Shown here piece after piece: positions 762-11,019 of a DNA stretch of 20,389 nt (within the stretch, counting starts at the first letter, position 1; the number at the start of each line of letters is the position of its first letter). The DNA comes from a virus. Both the position numbers and the translations under genes were made by a program. The DNA lies in the IMG/VR virus record IMGVR_UViG_3300036861_000100, positions 1-20,389 of that record. One strand, 5' to 3'. A model generated the notes under the pieces. The model was not told where the DNA came from and made no database searches. It was given only the letters and a program-made list of their open reading frames with translations.

Positions 762-1197
762 CGCTTCACCTCCACGAACTCGAACGCCATCGGAGCCCGT
801 GACAGGTGCTCCCGGCAACCGCGGCAGATGTGGCGGACCTGGTTCGTCCGGTCTCCGACGATGCGGACGGCTCCGAGCCGAAACGGGCGGCAACCGTTTC
901 GGCGGCATACATCGCGGACACGGCCTCTGCGACATGGCGGTTGAATGTCTTTACCACTGGCCAGTCTTCGTGATCGCCGCAATCGCATCGTCCGTCGTGG
1001 AGCATGTTGTGCTCCGAAATCAGCGCCTCAATGGCATCCACGTCCAGTCCTACCCCGGCAGCGGCTTCGTTTTCGATGGCGAGGATGGCGTCCAGCCCTT
1101 CACCCTCGTCGTTGTCCACGCCGAGCCCGATGAGCGCTTCGAGCAGCGCCTTCCCCGCCTCCGTCCGTGGCTCCCTGACTGCGCGCTCGTCGGTCAT
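758..1197 (-). CDS. Hypothetical zinc-binding protein spanning two frames (apparent -1 frameshift near 880)
   Basis: The start ATG at 1197 overlaps the methyltransferase stop (ATGA). The first frame gives about 105 credible residues, including a CDCGDHEDW segment and HVAEAVSAMYAAETVAARF. After about base 883 this frame turns into a Ser/Thr-rich stretch with no family character and stops at 766. The -1 frame from the same point reads LGAVRIVGDRTNQVRHICR followed by GCREHLS and stops at 758, with strong third-position GC and a CRGC zinc knuckle. No start codon for the second frame lies near the junction, so one protein joined by a -1 shift fits best. A T-TTC stretch at 880-883 could allow a Phe-tRNA slip; an indel in the assembly is equally possible. 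Function unknown. Confidence 0.5.
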
Positions 1198-1892
1198 AGC
1201 CCGAGCCCCGCGTGCGCCTTTTCGAACACGGTCCACGCCCGGATGGCGTATCCAGCGCCAGTCGAGACGCCCCAGACGCCGACCATCCGCAGCGGTGGTC
1301 GATGCATCGGGACCTGGAAGTGGAGCAGCCCGACACGGCCACCGGGACGAAGCAGGCGGCTCGCCTCGCGGAGTATTTGTCCCGGCTTTGGGTAGTCGGC
1401 TCCGGTGCCGTAGAGGTTCGCGGCGTACTCCTCCGAGTAGGGCGGATCGGCCATGATCCAGTCGAAGGACTCATCTGGGAGGGGAACGTTGCGACAGTCA
1501 GCTACGATGTCAGGTTGCATCTCGGGCCGGATATCGACGGTCGTGCCGATGCGCATTGAGCCGGAGCAGAGGTGCAGCACGGCAGTCGGATCGGTGACAC
1601 CGAGCGTCCCATAGGCCCGGTTGAGGAACCCGATGGGATAGCCACCTCCATCGGGGTGGGCTACGTAGACATCTGCGGGAGCGAACCCGAACAGGACGGG
1701 ATGCCCTTGACCCTGATCGCCGGTCTGTGATGGCATCGACACTCGGCTCATCCGCCCGCCACCAGCTCGCTGCCAAGAGGCAGCCTCGCGCTGGTCCTCT
1801 GTGAGGTGCGACTCATGCCCGCCTTCTGGGCATGGATGCGGAAGGCCGGCGTCGTGGCGACGTTGGATTTCGTTCATTTCGGGGGTGTTCAT
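1194..1892 (-). CDS. SAM-dependent DNA methyltransferase, DPPY type, 232 aa
   Basis: Probably methylates phage or host DNA at an amino group (N6-adenine or N4-cytosine). An SAM-binding motif I-like stretch, VLHLCSGS (residues 105-112), is followed by ADCRNVPLPDESFDWIMADP (131-150), ending in the catalytic DPPY (149-152), and then LRPGGRVGLL (181-190), typical of Rossmann-fold methyltransferases. Motif I precedes the DPPY motif. The protein is short and shows no obvious target-recognition domain, and no restriction enzyme is adjacent, so a stand-alone (protective or regulatory) enzyme is likely. The ATG at 1892 forms an ATGA overlap with the preceding micro-gene. The first ~47 residues look like a separate region, and an internal Met at residue 48 could be an alternative start. 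Methylation of another substrate cannot be excluded. Confidence 0.8.
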   Translation of the reverse strand: MNTPEMNEIQRRHDAGLPHPCPEGGHESHLTEDQREAASWQRAGGGRMSRVSMPSQTGDQGQGHPVLFGFAPADVYVAHPDGGGYPIGFLNRAYGTLGVTDPTAVLHLCSGSMRIGTTVDIRPEMQPDIVADCRNVPLPDESFDWIMADPPYSEEYAANLYGTGADYPKPGQILREASRLLRPGGRVGLLHFQVPMHRPPLRMVGVWGVSTGAGYAIRAWTVFEKAHAGLGL

Positions 1893-1954
1893 CGCGCACC
1901 CACCACGGCCCACATCGTCACGTACACCAGCCGCAACGTGGACAGCCCGGTCAT
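1889..1954 (-). CDS. Micro-protein, 21 aa, single hydrophobic helix
   Basis: A tiny gene with ATGA overlaps at both ends: its ATG overlaps the DUF1643 stop and its TGA overlaps the methyltransferase ATG. The product carries LRLVYVTMWAVV, which matches the C-terminal RLFYVTLWAVV of the 91-aa membrane protein encoded at 2448-2723. It is probably a membrane-inserted peptide. The exact fit between two neighbours and the protein-level similarity argue for a real cistron rather than chance. It could instead be a decayed copy kept for coupling translation to the methyltransferase. Function unknown. Confidence 0.55.
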   Translation of the reverse strand: MTGLSTLRLVYVTMWAVVGAR

Positions 1955-2451
1955 CGGACAGGCTCGTGTGTGGCCAACCACCAGAAGGGCGAGTACTCCA
2001 CGAGTGACGCATCGGCTCGGACATACAGCGGATGGCGCGGATGGCCATTCTTGGTAAAGCCGAGCGCCATCATTGTTCCGAGTAGCCGCGCCACCTCCCG
2101 GTCGCGGTTGCGGTACGAACCGCCGGCGCCCCATGCCGCGACGATCATTGCCGACTCCCAGTACACGGCCTCCAGGTGTGCGTCATTGAGTGGACCCACG
2201 GCGGCTGAGGCCGCGTCTCGCATGACACGGGGATTGGTGGCCCGGAACGCGAACAGGTTGGCCATGATTAGTCCGCCGTAACCCCACCGCTTCGCGAAAC
2301 CTATGCAACGACGAATCGTCGGGTCGTCCTGCGTCTCGTCAGCCGTCGAGGGATTGAGGCCAATGAACGCGACGAGCGGACCGTCGTCCCACTGGCGGCG
2401 CAACTGGTAGCGGTACATGCGGTCCGACGAAAACACGGCCCCAACTGTCAT
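1951..2451 (-). CDS. DUF1643 family protein, 166 aa
   Basis: Shows the hallmark of DUF1643: IGLNPSTADETQDDPTIRRC (residues 30-49), then FAKRWGYGGLIMANLFAFRA (52-71), and later AAWGAGGS (105-112). The biochemical activity of the family is not established; members are common in phages and mobile elements of bacteria. The length is normal for the family. The start at 2451 is fixed by the ATGA overlap with the upstream membrane protein and by alignment of the family motif, with GGAAGGGG upstream as a weak ribosome-binding site. An open reading extends further upstream in this frame but lies inside the preceding gene. Confidence 0.85.
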   Translation of the reverse strand: MTVGAVFSSDRMYRYQLRRQWDDGPLVAFIGLNPSTADETQDDPTIRRCIGFAKRWGYGGLIMANLFAFRATNPRVMRDAASAAVGPLNDAHLEAVYWESAMIVAAWGAGGSYRNRDREVARLLGTMMALGFTKNGHPRHPLYVRADASLVEYSPFWWLATHEPVR

Positions 2452-2723
2452 CCCGCCGCCCCTTCCGGTGTCACGACAGCCCAGAGCGTCACGTAGAACA
2501 ACCGACCCGCCGAGACCATGAGCCCAGCCACGAACGCAGCAGCGGCCATCTGACGCCACGTCAGCCGCTCTCCGAGAGCCTCGTACCAGCCGAGCCGTTC
2601 GAAGGCGAAGTGACAGAGGGTGCCGAGGCCGACGAGGGCGAGGACGCTGGTTGCTGCGTACTCCCAGGCACGCCAGAGCAGCAGGATGAAGCCAACGACC
2701 AGCCCGAGGACGGATTCGATCAT
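2448..2723 (-). CDS. Small multi-pass membrane protein, 91 aa
   Basis: Hydrophobic segments at about residues 3-18 (VLGLVVGFILLLW), 24-40 (ATSVLALVGLGTLCHF) and 58-85 (MAAAAFVAGLMVSAGRLFYV onward) predict two or three transmembrane helices. There are no charged holin-like tails and no lysis gene is adjacent, so a holin role is unsupported. The last helix contains FYVTLWAVV, repeated in the 21-aa micro-protein downstream of DUF1643. The start overlaps the previous stop (ATGA) and the stop overlaps the DUF1643 start (ATGA). The role is unknown; a membrane-acting early protein such as superinfection exclusion is one possibility. Confidence 0.75.
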   Translation of the reverse strand: MIESVLGLVVGFILLLWRAWEYAATSVLALVGLGTLCHFAFERLGWYEALGERLTWRQMAAAAFVAGLMVSAGRLFYVTLWAVVTPEGAAG

Positions 2724-2965
2724 GCCGCTGCTCTCTGTCGATATCGTCGATCACGCGCGTTCTTACACGTCCGACATCCTCGACGGGGCGGCCCAGTACG
2801 TGTGGGCCAACGTGTCAGTGGGTGCCCATAGGGACAGACCGTCTTGTGGGCATTTCGGGCCGCAATGCTCGTACTTCGGAGGTTGTTCACCCAACCGAAC
2901 AGACCAGCGGTCGTGTCGACCTTCTCCGCGAACCGAACAGCGAGAGGCGCGTGCTTGCCGGTCAT
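2720..2965 (-). CDS. Small zinc-finger protein, 81 aa
   Basis: The C-terminal half carries VCPYGHPLT (about residues 43-51) and GCRTCKNARDRRYRQR (about 63-78), a C-x3-H...C-x2-C arrangement with a basic tail. It resembles the zinc-binding segment preceding HNH nuclease domains in small phage proteins, but no HNH catalytic triad is present, so it probably binds DNA or RNA without cutting it. Both ends form ATGA overlaps with neighbours. Exact function unknown. Confidence 0.65.
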   Translation of the reverse strand: MTGKHAPLAVRFAEKVDTTAGLFGWVNNLRSTSIAARNAHKTVCPYGHPLTRWPTRTGPPRRGCRTCKNARDRRYRQRAAA

Positions 2966-3147
2966 GCGACCCTCGACAGATCACGGGCCAAGCCATTCGG
3001 CCGCTGCCTTGCAAGTTGCAGCCAACGCGGTGCCGCCACGACGCGCGGACAAGGACATTCAGAGGGTGCGCAACGACAAGAGACGCAGCGGGAGCCGCCG
3101 ACTACGATGCGGGCGGGGCCGTCACAATTGCGGCAGGTGGTGTTCAT
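2962..3147 (-). CDS. Small cysteine-rich (zinc ribbon-like) protein, 61 aa
   Basis: Six cysteines lie in the first 34 residues: CRNC (5-8), CVSCRC (21-26) and CPC near 32-34. This spacing suggests a treble-clef or ribbon zinc site, followed by a basic, Arg-rich C-terminus. No known family. It sits directly after the HTH regulator with an ATGA overlap and overlaps the next gene in the same way. A transcriptional or nucleic-acid-binding accessory role is plausible but unproven. Confidence 0.6.
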   Translation of the reverse strand: MNTTCRNCDGPARIVVGGSRCVSCRCAPSECPCPRVVAAPRWLQLARQRPNGLARDLSRVA

Positions 3148-3344
3148 GCTACTTCGTCCCTTGCCGCCGCGATGGCGTCAGCCAGCGATCGGCGGTACTG
3201 CAGCTCGCGGGCGGGGGTGATGACCGCAGACCGCTCCAAGGTATGGACAGTCGCGCGAGAGACCCCCATCCGTGCGGCAATCTCGACCACGGTGATCTCC
3301 GCTCGGCGGCGTTCGGCTCTCAGATCCAGTCCAGTGATCGGCAT
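3144..3344 (-). CDS. XRE (Cro/C1)-type HTH regulator, 66 aa
   Basis: A single helix-turn-helix domain: LRAERRRAEITVVEIAARMG (8-27) then VSRATVHTLERS (28-39), the Cro/C1 signature with a recognition helix at SRATVHTLE. A Cro-sized protein of 66 residues with no C-terminal dimerisation or peptidase domain. It heads the leftward operon. A TTGACA / TAATGT promoter ends six bases before the ATG and there is no Shine-Dalgarno, so the message is probably leaderless, as lambda cI is from PRM. A 19-base palindrome covers its -35 box, so self-regulation is likely, together with control of the divergent glycosyltransferase gene. Whether it is the lysogeny repressor or a Cro-like early regulator is open. 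Confidence 0.8.
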   Translation of the reverse strand: MPITGLDLRAERRRAEITVVEIAARMGVSRATVHTLERSAVITPARELQYRRSLADAIAAARDEVA

Positions 3345-3350
3345 GAGGGA

Positions 3351-3379
3351 ACATTAGTCCCGTACTAGACAACTGTCAA
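3351..3379 (-). promoter_or_regulatory. Leftward promoter of the HTH operon (leaderless)
   Basis: On the minus strand a perfect TTGACA (3379-3374) is followed by a 17-base spacer and TAATGT (3356-3351), which fits the TAnnnT -10 pattern. Only six bases separate the -10 from the ATG at 3344, placing the transcription start at or next to the A of the ATG. The -35 box lies inside the palindrome 3362-3380, so a bound repressor would block RNA polymerase. Confidence 0.7.
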
Positions 3380-3380
3380 G
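3362..3380. promoter_or_regulatory. Candidate operator 1
   Basis: GTACTAGACAACTGTCAAG contains the inverted repeat CTAGACA / TGTCAAG (one mismatch) around a 2-base centre. It matches operator 2 at 16 of 19 positions and covers the -35 box of the leftward promoter. It is a likely site for the adjacent HTH protein. Confidence 0.65.
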
Positions 3381-3425
3381 CCGCTAGATAGTGCCATGCC
3401 AACTGCTAACCCGTCACGCACGATA

Positions 3426-3444
3426 GTACTTGACAGGTGTCAAG
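3426..3444. promoter_or_regulatory. Candidate operator 2
   Basis: GTACTTGACAGGTGTCAAG contains a perfect 7-base inverted repeat, CTTGACA / TGTCAAG. It lies 64 bases from operator 1, about six helical turns, so the two sites face the same side of the DNA. It sits just upstream of the preferred start (3468) of the plus-strand gene. A TTGACA at 3430-3435 could serve as a rightward -35, but I see no convincing -10 at the right distance. Confidence 0.65.
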
Positions 3445-3467
3445 ACATAGCGGAGACTCACCGTCCG

Positions 3468-4292
3468 ATGTCGTACCGACCATCGAGCAAGCCGCTCCGG
3501 GGGCGATGGCATCGGCCGACGATGTTCGGCCTTGCGATACTCGTACTCACGTTCGGCGGCCTTGTAGGATGGGCTGCCTATGGAGCCTTCGCGTCGCGTG
3601 GACTCGTCGGGGTCGACTTGTCGCTGTTTTCCGAGCTGGGTCGGCGGTTCGCCGAAACCGGGACTCAATATGCTCCGTTCCAGTTGGCGGGTCCGTATCA
3701 ATACGACGCGGGCTCGGGCTCAACCGACGTCTCGGCGATGCCTGGACTCTATCCGCCGCTGGCGGGGCCGATGTTCGCCCTCGTGCGCTTCCTCCCTAAA
3801 CTGCTGTGGTGGATCATCCCGTTGGGCCTGACAACGTGGCTCATCATCCGATGGCATCCGGCTCCGTGGATGTGGCCGGTGATGGCCCTCGCCACTTTGT
3901 CACCAAATACCTGGGGCTCGCTCATCGCCGGGAATACGACGATGTGGATCGTCCTGTTCGTGGCGGCCGGATTGCGTTGGGGCTGGCCTGCCGCGTTGAT
4001 CGTAATCAAGCCGACGTTTTTGCCGCTTACCCTTGTCGGCTGGCGCAGCCGGTGGATGTGGATAGGGCTCGCCGCATCCCTCGGTCTCACTGTGGCTCTG
4101 GCCTCGGAACTCGGTCGCTATGTCGTCGTTATCGGGAACGTCCGCGGTGCCAGTCCGCTCTATTCCCTTGCCGATCTACCTTTCGTACTGATCCCGGTGT
4201 GGGCCTATATCGCCCAGTCCACGGTAGCCAGGCCGATGCGCATGTTGATCCCGACCGGCTCGCCGCCGACGCCACCTGAATACAGCAGGTAG
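3468..4292 (+). CDS. Membrane glycosyltransferase-like protein, GT87 (DUF2029) type, 274 aa
   Basis: Likely moves a sugar from a polyprenol-phosphate donor to a surface glycan at the membrane (GT-C fold). The N-terminus is Arg-rich, then a first membrane helix (about 19-40) leads to an outside loop with VDLSLFSELG (Asp50, the position of the GT-C catalytic Asp). PGLYPPLAGP (92-101) matches the YPP motif of GT87, and AGNTTMWIVLFVAAGLRWGW plus IKPTFLPLTLVGWRSR (180-195) match its later conserved block. Six or seven helices are seen. It is shorter than usual (~400 aa) and may be a minimal or C-terminally shortened form. The start is uncertain: ATG 3396 is also in frame, but that stretch includes operator 2. 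Its last 88 bases overlap the end of the opposing propeller gene. It is the only plus-strand gene, and divergent from the HTH regulator. Confidence 0.7.
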   Translation: MSYRPSSKPLRGRWHRPTMFGLAILVLTFGGLVGWAAYGAFASRGLVGVDLSLFSELGRRFAETGTQYAPFQLAGPYQYDAGSGSTDVSAMPGLYPPLAGPMFALVRFLPKLLWWIIPLGLTTWLIIRWHPAPWMWPVMALATLSPNTWGSLIAGNTTMWIVLFVAAGLRWGWPAALIVIKPTFLPLTLVGWRSRWMWIGLAASLGLTVALASELGRYVVVIGNVRGASPLYSLADLPFVLIPVWAYIAQSTVARPMRMLIPTGSPPTPPEYSR

Positions 4293-5179
4293 AGAACTCC
4301 GTCTAGCCAGATCGGGCACGAGTCAAAGACGGCCGCGCTGTCCCAGCCGAATCCGCTGTGGTCGAGCACGTGCTGCTCGTACTCGAAGGCCGCGCCGTCA
4401 TCGACCGTTCGGTGGCGGTTGATCCAGCGTGAGGCTCCCGAGGCGTTGGCGTCGTGGAAGATCGAGTACTCGGTGTCGCTCGACGCGAGCACGGCAGGCG
4501 CGCCAAGCTGCTCAGACCACTCGCCAGCCTCGTACGTGAACAGGAAGCGGCGGTCGGTAAACGTGATTCCGTCGGCGCTGAGGGCCGTCTGGATGGAGCG
4601 CAGACCTGACGACTCCCAGAGCCCGTGGAACAGCTCAATCGTCCCGTCGGAGCGGATGCGAGCATTTGGGTCGAACGTGTGGAGCTGGCCAGCCAGGATC
4701 GGGATGACCGGCGAGCCGCCGTTCTCGGACATCCACGTCAACAGGTCAGACGAGGACAGGGCATAGATTTGCGAGGCCCCCGGCCAGTTCTGGATGTACA
4801 TCAGATAGTCGCCAGCGCCGCGGCGGAGGATCGTCGGCGCGACATGGCTGAACGCCGAGTAGACCGGGTTCGTCGCCTCGCGCGTCCAGGTGATGAGGTC
4901 CTCGGAGTAGGCGAGGCCCGTGTGCCACGTCGTCGAGTCCGAGGTCCCCGAGTACGACATGACGAACAGGCCCAGGTCCTCGTCGAAGTAGCACGACTCG
5001 CCACCGACCTCGCGGTCGTCCCACTGGCCCGAGGTGCCCGGCAAGAACACGGGGTTGCTGACGTATTTCGTCAGCGCGCCCGGCAGCGGGTCGCCCTGCG
5101 GCGGCAGGCCGCCCGCTGCCGGCGGTGGTGGGGCGAACGATCCGCTGCCGTTCGTTGCTCCGAGGAGCATCCGCATCAT
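4205..5179 (-). CDS. Five-bladed beta-propeller protein, glycoside hydrolase-like, 324 aa
   Basis: The last gene of the tail cluster, probably a virion-attached enzyme or lectin acting on host surface polysaccharide. After a Pro/Gly-rich linker (12-35) there are five repeats of the pattern acidic/aromatic - hydrophobic strand - Gly-x-Tyr-Leu strand - Ala-x-Ser-x-Asp-x-x-x-Trp: residues 50-100 (ending GLAYSEDLITWTR), 110-150 (ending ALSSSDLLTWM), 165-208 (ending TALSADGITFTD), 222-268 and 279-322. This is the signature of GH32/43/62/68/117/130-type propellers. Candidate catalytic acids near the blade entrances are Asp54/55, Asp170 and Glu223. Assignment to one GH family is not possible by eye, and a purely binding propeller is an alternative. 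The start overlaps the preceding fibre stop (ATGA). Confidence 0.7.
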   Translation of the reverse strand: MMRMLLGATNGSGSFAPPPPAAGGLPPQGDPLPGALTKYVSNPVFLPGTSGQWDDREVGGESCYFDEDLGLFVMSYSGTSDSTTWHTGLAYSEDLITWTREATNPVYSAFSHVAPTILRRGAGDYLMYIQNWPGASQIYALSSSDLLTWMSENGGSPVIPILAGQLHTFDPNARIRSDGTIELFHGLWESSGLRSIQTALSADGITFTDRRFLFTYEAGEWSEQLGAPAVLASSDTEYSIFHDANASGASRWINRHRTVDDGAAFEYEQHVLDHSGFGWDSAAVFDSCPIWLDGVLYLLYSGGVGGEPVGINMRIGLATVDWAI

Positions 5180-6027
5180 GCGGGGGCACCGCCGGAAAGC
5201 GTCCAGGCCTTGATGTTGCGGTAGTTGGTAAGCGACCCGAGGGTCATCAGACCCAGGAAGTTAGCCGACGCGATCCACGATACCGTGTTGCCCATGTGGA
5301 AGTTGTTGATGATCGTTCCATCCTTGTAAACCGTCAGCATCTCGCTACTTAGGACGAGGCGGAGTTTGTAGTAGGTATCGAGGTTGACGGTGGTCGTGGT
5401 GGAGAGGAGCTGCGCGACACCGTCGCGGTTGATGTCGATCTTGCCTGTGCCACGGTCGAGGATAACGCTCAGCCCATTGGTGTTGGTTCCGTCGAAGCCG
5501 ATGACGAGTCCGCCCTGTATGTTCGCTCCGCCGCCTTGGCCGGCAGTTGGGAAGCGAATCTCGGCCTCGTAGATGACGCCGAACCCGAGCGGGATTGCGG
5601 TGTTGTACTTCGCCTTGAAGTTTGAGCCAGCGGTGTTGGTCTGGTTGATCGTCGTGCCGTCGCTCGCCCATGTTCCAGCCGCCGCAGTGAAGTTGGCAAA
5701 CGAGGCGCCATTCTCATTGACATCCTGCGTCCACGAAACGCCACCAGCACCGACATCGGCCATCGTCGCGAAGACATTGCCCGCGGCCGGTGCCGCGGCT
5801 CCCGCGAGCGCATCGGCGATATCCTGGCCAGACGAAGCCGTGATGATCGCATCGAGGTCAGATGAGCCGCCGAGAGTCGCCCATGTCGACCACGTCGACC
5901 CGTCCGACTGGTAGATGAGCGAGTGCGTCGTGCAGGAATAGAGCGTCCCTTGTGGGATGTCCGTCGCCGCAGGGCGGCTGGCGTGATCACCCTCGAGCAG
6001 ATGGTCCGAGAAGCGGGTGGTTGCCAT
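5176..6027 (-). CDS. Tail fibre / receptor-binding protein with lectin-like C-terminus, 283 aa
   Basis: The N-terminus has a short virion-attachment pattern seen in phage fibres (PQGTLYSCTTHSLIYQSDGS, then TWSTWATLG, residues 25-53). The C-terminal part (about 108-278) reads as a concanavalin A/LamG-like jelly roll: alternating beta strands, IYEAEIRFP, GGLVIGFDG, YYKLRLVLSSEMLTVYKDG and a closing NIKAWTLSGG. This suggests glycan binding at the tail tip. The ATG at 6027 is preceded by AGGAGAG at good spacing. The stop overlaps the start of the propeller gene, so fibre and enzyme are probably made together and may form one tail-tip assembly. Confidence 0.7.
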   Translation of the reverse strand: MATTRFSDHLLEGDHASRPAATDIPQGTLYSCTTHSLIYQSDGSTWSTWATLGGSSDLDAIITASSGQDIADALAGAAAPAAGNVFATMADVGAGGVSWTQDVNENGASFANFTAAAGTWASDGTTINQTNTAGSNFKAKYNTAIPLGFGVIYEAEIRFPTAGQGGGANIQGGLVIGFDGTNTNGLSVILDRGTGKIDINRDGVAQLLSTTTTVNLDTYYKLRLVLSSEMLTVYKDGTIINNFHMGNTVSWIASANFLGLMTLGSLTNYRNIKAWTLSGGAPA

Positions 6028-6036
6028 CGTGCTCTC

Positions 6037-7095
6037 CTACAGCGGGATCAACGTGGGGATGAGGGAGTCGTCGCCGTCCCAGACGAGGACTGGGTCGCCC
6101 GCGACGACGGTGGTGAGCGGCATCCAGACGGACGTGTCGTCAGCCGGGTCACTGGCTCCGGGAATCGTCACGGTCACGGCATCGCCGGCCGCTGTCGCGG
6201 TAACACCCGACCCGACGAAGTCGAGCGACGTCGCAGCGGTGGTGAGCGGCGTTCCCTCGTCATCGACTTCGAGTACCGACGAGCTCCCACCGCCCGCGAA
6301 GAACCCGTACCAGTTCGTCCCGCCGTCCCGCGACATGAGCAGCAGCAACGATGTCATCGAAGCGGTCGTGTCGAATGCCGCCTCCAGCGCCGCGGCGTTG
6401 ACGACGGACGAAGGCAGGTCGATCGTCCAACCCCCGGTCCCATCTTCGGCGAGCTCGAGGACCATCGACGCCACTAAGCCGGACGTGGCCCCGCTCAGCG
6501 TGAACACGCAGTCGGCGTTGAGGGTCCCCGAGTGCCAGCCCGTCAAGGCCGAGAACGTCTCCGTCGAGCCGAGGTTGCCGTGGGCCTGGTAGCCTATGAC
6601 CTTCGACGCCAGCTCCTGTAGCGCCGCTTCGACATCGGTGGCCGTGAAGTACCCGCCAGCATCCGCGATCGAGACGGCCGAGGCGATGACGCTCGATGTG
6701 ATCTGGGCGAACGTCAGGGCGTTCGTCCCGAGCACAGGGGCCGTGGTGTTCGTGTTCCGCCAGAGCGTTCCGCCGTTCGTGCTTCCGGCTATCACGTAGA
6801 CGATTGCGCCCATGACCTCTGAGGCAGGCACGGAAGTGGTCGCGTCCTGATCCATGTCGAAGTCGCGTATCGGCGTCACGCCCGCGAGATAGATGCCGTT
6901 CTGGCTGCCGGTGCTCTGGTCCTTGACGAGGACCCGATCTCCCGCGGCGAGGGTCACCCCGTCGATGGAGTCGCCTGCGTTGAGGGCAGTTGAGATCGTG
7001 ACGTTCGCGGTCGTGGCGACGCGGCACGGTTGCTTCCACGAGACGCCCCGGTGCATCTCCGGGATGTGCGAGATACGGCCTGTCGGATCGGGCAT
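6037..7095 (-). CDS. Tail fibre-like structural protein, 352 aa
   Basis: Residues 23-75 carry a phage fibre module: CRVATTANVTISTAL, then DGVTLAAGDRVLVKDQ and NGIYLAG. It is found repeatedly in tail fibre and baseplate-attached proteins. The rest is Ser/Thr/Gly/Ala-rich with predicted beta strands, including a segment near residues 145-165 (GGYFTATDVEAALQELASKV) that is also common in phage fibres. It lies one base after the tail-tip protein and ten bases before the next fibre, consistent with a stepwise tail-tip structure. No enzymatic motif is visible. Confidence 0.7.
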   Translation of the reverse strand: MPDPTGRISHIPEMHRGVSWKQPCRVATTANVTISTALNAGDSIDGVTLAAGDRVLVKDQSTGSQNGIYLAGVTPIRDFDMDQDATTSVPASEVMGAIVYVIAGSTNGGTLWRNTNTTAPVLGTNALTFAQITSSVIASAVSIADAGGYFTATDVEAALQELASKVIGYQAHGNLGSTETFSALTGWHSGTLNADCVFTLSGATSGLVASMVLELAEDGTGGWTIDLPSSVVNAAALEAAFDTTASMTSLLLLMSRDGGTNWYGFFAGGGSSSVLEVDDEGTPLTTAATSLDFVGSGVTATAAGDAVTVTIPGASDPADDTSVWMPLTTVVAGDPVLVWDGDDSLIPTLIPL

Positions 7096-7096
7096 C

Positions 7097-9115
7097 TCAG
7101 CGGCCCTGGTACGTCACTTGGACCAGCTCTCCGACGGCCGGAGCGAAGCCGAGGGTGAAGTCTCCAGTGGCCCCGTCGAACGACGTCACGGCCCCAGTCT
7201 GGTCGAGGAGGTCGACATAGACCGTCAGCGAGCCATCCGCATAGGAGAAGCTCGTGGTAAACGTCGTCGTTGTCCCGTCGCCAACGCCGATCGTCTCACG
7301 GTAGACCGTCTGTCCCGGCATCGGTGGGTTGCCGGCATTCGAGCAAGAGAGGCCGATCGATAGGGCATACCAGGGATCCGCCCCGCCCGGGAAGGTGACG
7401 CTGGCGCTGTAAGAGCCTGAGGCCGACGCGACAGACCGTTGCTCGAGGTAGCGGAAGGAGTGAGTCGTGATGGTCAGGTTGTCGTCGAAGATGACGCTGT
7501 AGTTGGCATCGGCGGTGAATGATCCGATCGAGACGCCATCCGTGGCGATGGAGAAGGCCGAGATCAGGAGAACCGGTGCCCCTGAAATTGGGGTGACAGC
7601 CGTGAACACCGCCGGAGTGCCCGCGCCCGAGGTCGAGGAGAGGACGATGTCCTCAAGATTGGCTCCGGAAATCTCCATGACGTAGCAGGACGTCGGGTTG
7701 CTCGGCGGATCACCCCCACCGGGTACATTGTCGAAATAGATCCCAGTCTCCGTTCCGTCCGAGATCTTGCCGAAGAACCCGAGGCCGTCGCTGCCACTGC
7801 CTCCGGGTCCGACTGTGACGAGTTGATCCCAACCGCTCGCCGTATAAGATGCTCCAATGCCGTTGCGATCCGTTCGCAGGACCAGCAGAACATTCCCTGC
7901 GGTCGGGGTGAACGACCAATCCCAGGTGTAGGGGAGCCCGAGTGCTCCGGCCTCGTCGTTGACGATGGTCGGCGGACCGCTACAAGGTTGCGGGGCAGGG
8001 AAGACACCCGGATCCCCGCCGCCCGCCTGGTTGATGCCCTTCGTCGAGAGCTCCAGTTGGACATCGTAAAAGTCGTTCCCGCCTGCGGTCAGGGTCAGCG
8101 TCCGACGGGTGACACGCGTCCACGTGAACGTGTCGTAGTGGGGGATGTGCTCGAAACGGACCTGGATTCGCATCCCGGCTTCGATGAGATTGACCTTGTC
8201 CGACGGCAGCCGCATGACGCAGGTGATCGTGTCGACCTGCGCCGCGTGCGTCGTCAGGAAGGTGTCGGCGTGGAGGCTGGCGCTCGTGAGGTTGTTGTTC
8301 CGATCCGATTCGTACACGCCGTCGCGGTGGATACCGAACTCGGTAAACGTCGAGCCGAGCTGTCGGTAGAGCGTTCCCCCGACATAGCTGATGTAGACGC
8401 CGTCATAGATCGCGTCGCCCGATGCGTCGAGAGATGATTCCTGGTAGGGCCAGAAGGTGACGGTGTCGTCCACGTCGGACAGGACATTGCTGATCCGGAG
8501 CGTCGAGTCGTTGATCGCCGAGACAGCCTCGCCGTAGAACAGGCTGACCTCCTCGCCGGGGGCGGCCGAGTCGTCCCAGTAGACGAAGAATACCCAGCGT
8601 CCAGCCGTGGCGGCGGTGACGATGTCGGACAGGACGTCATCGGCGTACTTCCCGCGGTAATCCGTCTCGTCGTAGCTCCACACGTTCGCCATGACGAAAC
8701 CGTTGTCGAAGACGACGCCGGCCATTCCGACGGTCGAGAGGAGCCACGTCAGGCGGTCCGAGCCCGTTTCCTTGGGACGATTGGCTGCCGCTCCCCGGAG
8801 GACCCGGAGGTGGAGGAGGAAGTTGAGATCGGCGATCTCGAGTTCCCAGATGCGCCCCGGACCGTTGCGGTACGGCCCACGTGAGATCTTGACGTCGTAC
8901 ATGAACCCCGTGAAGCAGCGGGGCTGGGCGCAGTCCGATTCCTCGACGATGAACGGTTGGAGCTGCTTGAGATCGAGGACCCCGTCGGGATCCTCGATCC
9001 TCACCCCGGACGTGGCGAACGTGCCATCGGCCGCCGATGTCAGCGAGGCGATGCCGCCCTCGAGGAGGATCTGTCCCGCCCGTTCCGAGCCCGCGTAGGT
9101 GATCGAGAGGGTCAT
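7097..9115 (-). CDS. Large tail-tip / minor tail protein, 672 aa
   Basis: Follows the tape measure gene with an ATGA overlap, the place of distal tail and tail-associated hub proteins. The N-terminal ~360 residues look like a baseplate hub: beta-rich, GVRIEDPDGVLDLKQLQPF early, then a Tal-like region ending near YDVQLELSTKG. Residues ~380-590 form a beta-sandwich-like module (TAGNVLLVLRTDRNGIGASY, later YALSIGL), possibly carbohydrate-binding. The last ~70 residues (from about 602) match a small fibre-docking domain with TTFTTSFSYADGSLTVYVDL and a closing APAVGELVQVTYQ. It may combine functions that other siphophages split over two or three genes. Domain limits are estimates. Confidence 0.7.
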   Translation of the reverse strand: MTLSITYAGSERAGQILLEGGIASLTSAADGTFATSGVRIEDPDGVLDLKQLQPFIVEESDCAQPRCFTGFMYDVKISRGPYRNGPGRIWELEIADLNFLLHLRVLRGAAANRPKETGSDRLTWLLSTVGMAGVVFDNGFVMANVWSYDETDYRGKYADDVLSDIVTAATAGRWVFFVYWDDSAAPGEEVSLFYGEAVSAINDSTLRISNVLSDVDDTVTFWPYQESSLDASGDAIYDGVYISYVGGTLYRQLGSTFTEFGIHRDGVYESDRNNNLTSASLHADTFLTTHAAQVDTITCVMRLPSDKVNLIEAGMRIQVRFEHIPHYDTFTWTRVTRRTLTLTAGGNDFYDVQLELSTKGINQAGGGDPGVFPAPQPCSGPPTIVNDEAGALGLPYTWDWSFTPTAGNVLLVLRTDRNGIGASYTASGWDQLVTVGPGGSGSDGLGFFGKISDGTETGIYFDNVPGGGDPPSNPTSCYVMEISGANLEDIVLSSTSGAGTPAVFTAVTPISGAPVLLISAFSIATDGVSIGSFTADANYSVIFDDNLTITTHSFRYLEQRSVASASGSYSASVTFPGGADPWYALSIGLSCSNAGNPPMPGQTVYRETIGVGDGTTTTFTTSFSYADGSLTVYVDLLDQTGAVTSFDGATGDFTLGFAPAVGELVQVTYQGR

Positions 9116-11019
9116 TCGGCGATGACCCGGCCGAGGCGCGAGCCGGACTGCGAATGGAGGACCATGTCGCGGAGCGTCACCGTCGTCCGGTTGGTGATGG
9201 GAACCGTGAGATGCACGCTGAGGTCCTTGTCCTTGACAGCCTCCGTGGTGGCACGGGAGGCAGCCGTAGAGCGATTCTGAGCAGACTCGATGCCCTGTGC
9301 GCCACGGATATTGGCTGCGATCTGCCCTGCACTGGCGGACTTCACCACTCGGCCGACATTGGATGCTGCATCCTTGACCTGTTCGAGTTTGTCCCGCGCA
9401 ATGTTCGCTGCCCGTCGGATTGCAGCCTGAGAACCGGAATCGGCATCCTTGATGGCGGATATCGTGCTCTGTGAAGTCGATTCCAAGTCGGCGATCTTGC
9501 TGACCAGCGCTGACCTGGTTGCAATCACCGAATCCTTGACACCATCGATGTTCAGGGCAAAGGCCGTCCCCTGCGGGGTGATGCCACTGTTGAAGTCGGC
9601 TATCTGACCATCGATCCCGGCGAGCGCACTCTTGAGATCAGCAAGTGAGGCGCCACCCGTGAAGCTGGCGGTCTGGGACGCGAGCCCTGTCTCCTGTTGT
9701 TTGTTGGCAGCCGTGATGCCATCGACAAACGCGCTCTTGCCGATCTCGAAGATAGCGGCCGCGGCAGCAACGGGAAGGACCACCTTGAGAGCCGTCGATA
9801 CGAGACCTCCCCCGCCTGCACCCGCTGCCCCTGCAATGCCGCCCGCTCCCGTAACGTTGACAACGCCGCCATTGACGTTGACGACGCCCGACACGAGTTG
9901 CTTGAGAACGGACGAGATAAGTCCTCCCGCAAGGTTCGTCACGAGGCCGCCCGTCAGTTTGTTGATGGCGAACCCGGATACGAGAAGGGTTTGAAGCTGC
10001 GGCGGAAGTGACTTGAATAGTCCTACGGCACCTTGGACGAGAGCGAAGGTTGCCTTGGCTGCTGAGGCGACGATCGGTGCGGCCTCTTTGGCCGTCTGGA
10101 ATGCACCCTTGAGGAAATCGGCACCCTGTTTCAAATTCTCATCGGAGAAGAGCCCCGCCAGGGAATCGCCAAGATCCTTCGCGCCCTTCACGACTGCCGG
10201 ATCGGCGAGGAATGTTGACAGCCCATCCGCCACCTTGCCGATGACCGGCAGAAGCGCAGTGGCGAGTGTCTTCTGCAGGTCTTCGATCGAGTCCCGGAAC
10301 TTGGCGACCTTACCTGCCGTCGTCGATCCACCGGCCAGGAACGACCCCCCGAACTCAGTGTTGAGCTCTTTCAGGATGAGCTTCTGAGCGTCGAGGGTAT
10401 GGCCCGTCTCAACCAATCGTTTGATGACGGTGATCTGATCGGCGGAGAAGTTGACACCGACTCGACGGAGCGCGGTGATGCCCTTGATCGGATCCTGCAG
10501 GGCCTTGCCGATCTGAATGACCGACCCCTGGAGATCCGTCCCGAGGGCAGTGGACATATCGAGAGCCGCCGCGATGGCGGGCTCGAATGCGTCCTTGCGG
10601 ATGGCCGTGAACGTCAACAGGACGTTCTCGGCCGATTGAATGACCTTGTCGTCGATCGTCGCGTTGAGACCTTCGTATTTCTCCGCGAGATCCCGGATGC
10701 TCCCTGCAGTCTCACCGGCAACGCCATTGGTTGATTTCAGGACGGCATTTGTCTGTGTCGTGACGGTCTCTAGCTCTGCCAGCGACTTCAAACCGATGGC
10801 TACCTGCGAGGCGAGGATGCCGATTCCACCGGCTGCGATGAGTGCCCCGTTCTTGATGCCGGTTCCGATCTGCTGACCGGCTTTTAGTGCGCGCGTGTGC
10901 ACCGAGTCAAAGCCAGCGTCGAGCTTCCCGATCGTACCGAGGGCCTTATTGGCATTCGGCGTGAACTTATCCTGTAATTCGAGGCTGGCGATCAGGCGCG
11001 CAGTCTCAGCGCTTGGCAC
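9112..11019 (-). CDS. Tape measure protein, 635 aa
   Basis: Sets tail length and is the scaffold for tail tube assembly. It lies right after the tail chaperones, and is long and Ala-rich. Helical stretches and hydrophobic segments occur at about 56-80 and 350-425 (GGIAGAAGAGGGGLVSTALK and following). The TP901-type tape-measure signature ALQDPIKGITALRRVGVNFS is near residues 170-190. Using the usual ~1.5 angstrom per residue, it implies a tail of roughly 95 nm, short for siphophages. Its start overlaps the end of the frameshifted chaperone by 14 bases. No lysozyme or peptidase domain is visible. Confidence 0.9.
   Translation of the reverse strand: MPSAETARLIASLELQDKFTPNANKALGTIGKLDAGFDSVHTRALKAGQQIGTGIKNGALIAAGGIGILASQVAIGLKSLAELETVTTQTNAVLKSTNGVAGETAGSIRDLAEKYEGLNATIDDKVIQSAENVLLTFTAIRKDAFEPAIAAALDMSTALGTDLQGSVIQIGKALQDPIKGITALRRVGVNFSADQITVIKRLVETGHTLDAQKLILKELNTEFGGSFLAGGSTTAGKVAKFRDSIEDLQKTLATALLPVIGKVADGLSTFLADPAVVKGAKDLGDSLAGLFSDENLKQGADFLKGAFQTAKEAAPIVASAAKATFALVQGAVGLFKSLPPQLQTLLVSGFAINKLTGGLVTNLAGGLISSVLKQLVSGVVNVNGGVVNVTGAGGIAGAAGAGGGGLVSTALKVVLPVAAAAAIFEIGKSAFVDGITAANKQQETGLASQTASFTGGASLADLKSALAGIDGQIADFNSGITPQGTAFALNIDGVKDSVIATRSALVSKIADLESTSQSTISAIKDADSGSQAAIRRAANIARDKLEQVKDAASNVGRVVKSASAGQIAANIRGAQGIESAQNRSTAASRATTEAVKDKDLSVHLTVPITNRTTVTLRDMVLHSQSGSRLGRVIAE

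Follow-up and report, generated by a model that had tools for sequence, protein, structure and literature searches.

A GT87-like membrane protein gene in the putative repressor position of an uncultivated phage

Introduction

What is a gene resembling a membrane glycosyltransferase doing in a phage, head-on against the gene that closes the tail operon? The locus lies in a virus record of 20,389 bases, classed as a fragment and analysed here in full (the window, G000). A first-pass annotation had paired the membrane protein, P0001 (plus strand, 274 aa), with a glycosidase-like tail protein, P0002 (minus strand, 324 aa).

The tail-to-terminase operon of the window runs on the minus strand, and its terminase is ~30% identical to those of named actinobacteriophages and 44-60% identical to those of IMG/VR contigs. 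One of these relatives, IMGVR_UViG_3300034155_000007 (G001), has a terminase 55% identical to that of the window; IMGVR_UViG_3300035458_000016 (G011) and IMGVR_UViG_3300020203_000236 (G437) were also compared. The features discussed below are collected in Table 1.

Table 1. Features of the locus, in window coordinates
Feature	Position	Strand	Remarks
Cro-like small HTH regulator gene	3144-3344	-	66 aa; points away from the GT-like gene; Pfam HTH_31 above cut-off (E 3e-6)
Probable HTH-gene promoter	3351-3379	-	TTGACA (3379-3374), 17 nt, TAATGT (3356-3351); read from sequence
Operator-like palindrome 1	3365-3380		CTAGACAACTGTCAAG; G001 counterpart at L028:8476-8489
Degenerate middle operator	3398-3411		TGCCAACTGCTAAC; aligned with the intact G001 middle operator TGACAGTTGTCAGG
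Operator-like palindrome 2	3429-3444		CTTGACAGGTGTCAAG; includes the -35 of the plus-strand gene
Probable plus-strand promoter	3430-3458	+	TTGACA (3430-3435), 17 nt, GAGACT (3453-3458); weak -10; read from sequence
P0001 ORF	3468-4292	+	274 aa; 5-6 hydrophobic segments
First 16 codons of P0001	3468-3515	+	MSYRPSSKPLRGRWHR; from immunity-repressor N-terminus, by start-similarity test and DNA alignment with G001
GT87-like membrane body	3516-4292	+	D50, YPP 95-97, GN 155-156, K181 of IKPT; hhalign, shuffles, PimE mapping
Convergent overlap	4205-4292		88 bp; GT frame run-on into antisense of tail gene
P0002 ORF, last gene of tail operon	4205-5179	-	324 aa; weakly GH130/propeller-like
Tail-operon protein	5176-6027	-	283 aa; lectin-like look by eye; no family match

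Results

Resemblance of the plus-strand protein to GT87

ORF calling reproduced both genes at the positions first given for them, together with their 88-bp tail-to-tail overlap at the 3' ends. No Pfam, NCBIfam or PHROG family matched P0001 (0 families at E 10), and a search of the record for GT87 (PF09594) was negative, the curated Pfam cut-off not being reached by this protein. When P0001 was aligned by hhalign with a profile built from GT87 proteins of actinobacterial genomes, the score was 40.7 (E 4e-5), with residues 9-209 running collinearly along template columns 19-227 of 443. Sixty block shuffles of the protein, which preserve local composition and hydrophobicity, scored 16.7 on average (sd 3.7) and 29.1 at most. 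PimE, a solved GT87 relative (PDB 9dm5) in which W319 is essential (PMC12041525), could be mapped onto P0001, with D58 falling on D50, Y92 on Y95 and K195 on K181, so that the catalytic Asp and the donor Lys are retained. Q163 of PimE is changed to N156, W319 and H321 have no counterpart, and the C-terminal half of GT87, including the SPISWxHHW motif, is missing. The reading frame of P0001 is open throughout its 274 codons, and its GC3 of 0.74 is of the coding type. A single-sequence AlphaFold model was too poor for use (pLDDT 50), and Foldseek returned no match.

Judged from its sequence, P0001 is GT87-like across its first ~200 residues, which correspond to the catalytic module, and is not a full GT87 member. 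To that extent support exists for the annotation, in which a tail-operon gene converges with one for a GT87/GT-C-like membrane protein, although the family cut-offs were missed and the C-terminal half is absent. Alternatively, P0001 might be a short polytopic membrane protein of the superinfection-exclusion or holin-like kind that merely resembles GT87. The lack of family matches and the length of 274 aa would fit such a protein, as would the unrelated short membrane segment found in the same place in G001 and the 2-TM protein beside the G437 repressor. We regard this as quite improbable, as the GT87 match is collinear, includes the D, YPP, GN and IKPT positions and lies far above shuffles that keep hydrophobicity.

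Neither P0001 nor P0002 had a usable homologue in IMG/VR or GTDB genomes when these were scanned by exact short peptides, a scan that distant relatives may escape. Nothing usable was found for either protein among phages, nor among plasmids for P0001, the only one of the two searched there. Across 396 Actinomycetota genomes the search with both proteins gave weak N-terminal matches only (E about 1e-3), in frames without a multi-TM ORF, and a DNA pattern for GLRWGWPA had four matches over IMG/VR, none of them a glycosyltransferase. Both proteins are absent from every relative examined. The gtrA and gtrB families were not found among the neighbouring genes from 1194 to 11019 of the window, and the defence-system models that were run gave no match. 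The window also encodes a DUF1643 protein (1951-2754; Pfam E 3e-42; PHROG 3230 E 1e-56), frequent in unrelated IMG/VR contigs; a methyltransferase-like gene (1194-2048) comes next and overlaps it.

The tail protein and the convergent overlap

The first-pass annotation took P0002 for a five-bladed, glycosidase-like tail protein, a description that the searches support weakly. Its matches to GH130 stay below threshold in Pfam (E 0.029, 13.8 bits against a cut-off of 26) and in NCBIfam (GH130-type; E 0.0042, 16.5 against 450), a 1,2-beta-oligomannan phosphorylase in the PDB was reached at E 0.22, and all GH130-type matches fall in one and the same stretch. P0002 carries three S-x-D-x-[IL]-T-[WF] motifs, where 0 of 20,000 shuffles had two, for a pattern picked after the sequence had been viewed. 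A general repeat test gave p 0.39 and the single-sequence AlphaFold model, with a pLDDT of 34, was too poor for use.

The ATG of P0002 overlaps the stop region of the adjacent tail-operon gene (5176-6027) by 4 nt. The product of this neighbour looks lectin/LamG-like on inspection and may be a carbohydrate-binding partner of the tail tip. The tail operon of G001 was seen by eye to encode a GT2-type glycosyltransferase-like protein (L028:13243-14631) just upstream of a 742-aa collagen-like protein with G-x-x repeats (L028:11018-13246), and the two might form a glycosylation pair for a virion fibre.

The annotation had further proposed that the two proteins break and then remodel host glycan, with the antisense overlap making their expression mutually exclusive. 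The antisense frame entered by the GT-like gene is stop-poor, with a mean run-on of 158 bp, the codon-position G+C within the overlap follows the tail gene, and the overlap at the same place measures 4 nt in both G001 and G011. An overlap of 88 bp is therefore ordinary and needs no special explanation, and we rejected it as a regulatory device. The partners are not conserved either: the syntenic locus of G001 has a 2-TM membrane segment opposite a tail protein of 371 aa, and that of G011 a GDSL hydrolase opposite one of 1124 aa. With run-on in a stop-poor frame accounting for the overlap, and with relatives lacking the pairing, neither the cut-then-remodel scheme nor mutual silencing finds support. 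Both proteins do have a carbohydrate-active resemblance and their genes are adjacent, but with neither partner kept in the syntenic relatives we consider the paired model highly improbable.

An immunity-type control region

The most informative feature of the locus, at 3144-3515, extends from outside the interval first annotated to just within its edge. The HTH protein encoded there is 65% identical to its syntenic counterpart in G001. Its ATG follows the TAATGT hexamer by 6 nt, so the gene is probably leaderless. The operators in the window are of the TTGACA-NN-TGTC type, and three such palindromes stand beside the HTH homologue in G001; the TTGACAGGTGTCA within palindrome 2 is identical in G011. 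A consensus promoter scan listed neither the HTH-gene promoter nor the plus-strand promoter. The spacing suggests that both start codons would be at or near the start of transcription (leaderless or nearly so), with operators covering the -35 boxes. A divergent HTH gene and shared palindromic operators are both present, as in a cI/cro-type immunity region. No intact repressor gene and no other repressor homologue were found in the window, which is a 20-kb fragment. A link to lysogeny is indirectly supported by the immunity-type operators together with the repressor-derived start described below, neither of which figured in the first-pass annotation.

A repressor-like start

This same promoter region leads, in G011, into a complete HTH repressor, MAYRPALHGPKGDWGRF, a protein of 149 aa that begins MAYRPALHGPKGDWGRFLDQMRRERDW and sits behind the same TTGACAGGTGTCA; its own HTH_31 match is sub-threshold (E 0.011). 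The window gene starts with MSYRPSSKPLRGRWHRP and continues into the GT87-like protein. In an ungapped comparison with the start of the G011 repressor, the window gene scored 29, the best of 3,379 candidate phage starts (next best 18, mean -18, sd 9.3); the best-scoring start was the syntenic gene. The divergent ORF of G001 begins VYRPSKNSPQTAWARHLDQVLRDRDW; a short membrane segment follows, which stops where the tail operon is reached. When the G011 repressor was used as query in an unguided search, it recovered residues 2-33 of this ORF (47% identity, E 8e-6), nothing else in G001 and nothing in the window.

The G001 fusion joins 33 repressor residues to a different membrane segment, which gave no match to the GT87 profile. 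A likeness of this segment to the C-terminus of Chloroflexota-type GT87 proteins was considered, and the profile test gave it no support. The start test and the match to residues 2-33 of G001 indicate that two relatives carry repressor-start fusions with differing break points and membrane continuations. We read this as replacement of the repressor gene by an envelope-protein gene that kept the operators and the start. An assembly chimera at the fusion is unlikely, given that the same gene is independently fused in G001.

In G011 the slot that separates repressor and tail operon is taken up by a GDSL hydrolase gene (L137:3706-4524; Lipase_GDSL_2 E 2e-24) whose product has an apparent signal peptide; the gene is convergent with the tail gene with a 4-nt overlap. 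G437 has an HTH protein in the same place, upstream of an 85-aa protein (L145:7070-7327) that has two hydrophobic segments, carries a CxxC zinc-ribbon-like tail and is convergent with the tail genes. Across four phages, the slot is repeatedly filled by genes for membrane or secreted proteins. An integrase is present in G011, G008, G016 and G021; none was found in G000 or G001, both fragments in which absence is weak evidence.

Discussion

Our proposal is that the plus-strand gene holds the position of the immunity repressor in a temperate-type phage switch. What the analysis shows is a Cro-like HTH gene, operators, and a divergent gene whose opening codons derive from a repressor and whose GT87-like (GT-C) membrane body ends at the tail operon. 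Recombination or deletion may have swapped most of the repressor for an envelope-protein gene that probably once stood in the cargo slot separating the repressor from the tail operon. The promoter that once served the repressor would then direct production of P0001, early in infection and up to shut-off by the HTH protein, or in the lysogen if a repressor exists elsewhere. Acting on a surface glycan or glycolipid, P0001 would add sugar from a polyprenol-linked donor and thereby change the receptor so that superinfection is hindered; no special part would fall to the antisense overlap or the tail propeller. The basis for proposing sugar transfer and a superinfection block is the GT87 resemblance and the known conversion systems. 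Surface modification by P0001 is inferred, and remodelling with exclusion is a plausible reading of what the protein might do.

The explanation as a whole, a repressor-slot fusion making a receptor-altering GT87-like envelope protein from the former repressor promoter, seems to us evenly poised between right and wrong. In its favor, the same slot and start occur in G001, with its HTH homologue, three operators and repressor N-terminus, and in G011, with its complete repressor; the GT87 match retains D50, Y95 and K181; G011 and G437 have cargo slots; the window has no other repressor homologue; and G000 and G001 have no integrase. Against it, the C-terminal half of GT87 is missing, Q163 is replaced by N and a full-length homologue was found nowhere. 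The repressor similarity in the window spans 16 codons and is to a protein that is itself a sub-threshold HTH_31 match, a repressor or integrase could lie outside the 20-kb fragment, and the lack of a GT87 match in the G001 segment allows separate origins for the two fusions.

The main rival reading is that the fusion is a non-functional by-product, in which the repressor was lost through illegitimate recombination and what remains in frame is a truncated GT87 fragment of host or cargo origin, giving a virulent deletion derivative with an ORF that has no role. The missing C-terminal half and SPISWxHHW motif, a P0001 C-terminus that is antisense run-on, the decayed middle operator and the different fusion in the same gene of G001, without an integrase, would all be accommodated, and the deletion end-point inside the repressor gene of phage D29 (PMC5712189) is a precedent. 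However, the frame has remained open with coding-type GC3, the catalytic Asp and donor Lys survive, and four phages have a membrane or secreted protein encoded in the slot, and we hold a by-product to be possible but doubtful. A bolder form of the proposed fusion would have repressor immunity traded for envelope modification, with the repressor promoter, operators and start codons driving a compact GT87-type enzyme, the old switch timing a superinfection-excluding receptor change, and envelope genes capturing the slot repeatedly in related phages; this strikes us as unlikely.

If the fusion is functional, it illustrates how the dormancy switch of a temperate phage can be remade to alter the host surface, and conversion genes would have a concrete route to immunity control. 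Even as a relic, it documents that in-frame fusions at a single locus have repeatedly cost a group of uncultivated phages their repressor, and it marks the interval from repressor to tail operon as a place to look for exclusion genes. The genes and coordinates first annotated were right and the GT87 intuition was good; it is the repressor-slot fusion that deserves to be followed.

Comparison with known systems

The polyprenyl-phosphomannose mannosyltransferase PimE (GT87; PDB 9dm5; PMC12041525) shares with P0001 a collinear N-terminal module with D50, Y95 and K181, whereas P0001 is half its length, has N156 for Q163, lacks the W319/H321/H322 motif and falls below every family cut-off. The gtrABC serotype-conversion cassettes of phages P22, epsilon34 and SfV (PMC2629481) are similar in providing a phage-borne polytopic membrane glycosyltransferase, and P0001 would likewise use a polyprenol-linked sugar; the window gene differs in having no gtrA or gtrB neighbours and in lying in a repressor slot instead of its own operon. 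Mycobacteriophage D29 is a clear-plaque repressor-deletion derivative of a temperate parent (PMC5712189) that has lost most of its repressor gene and persists, as the window phage may have, although no membrane-enzyme ORF has been described as fused to the D29 repressor start. In the lambda cI-rexAB operon and RexAB-type systems, exclusion-type genes lie downstream of the repressor and one of them encodes a membrane protein (PMC12894663). The likeness is one of location, a membrane-type cargo at the repressor position; in the window, by contrast, the cargo appears fused to the repressor start and takes the place of the repressor itself.
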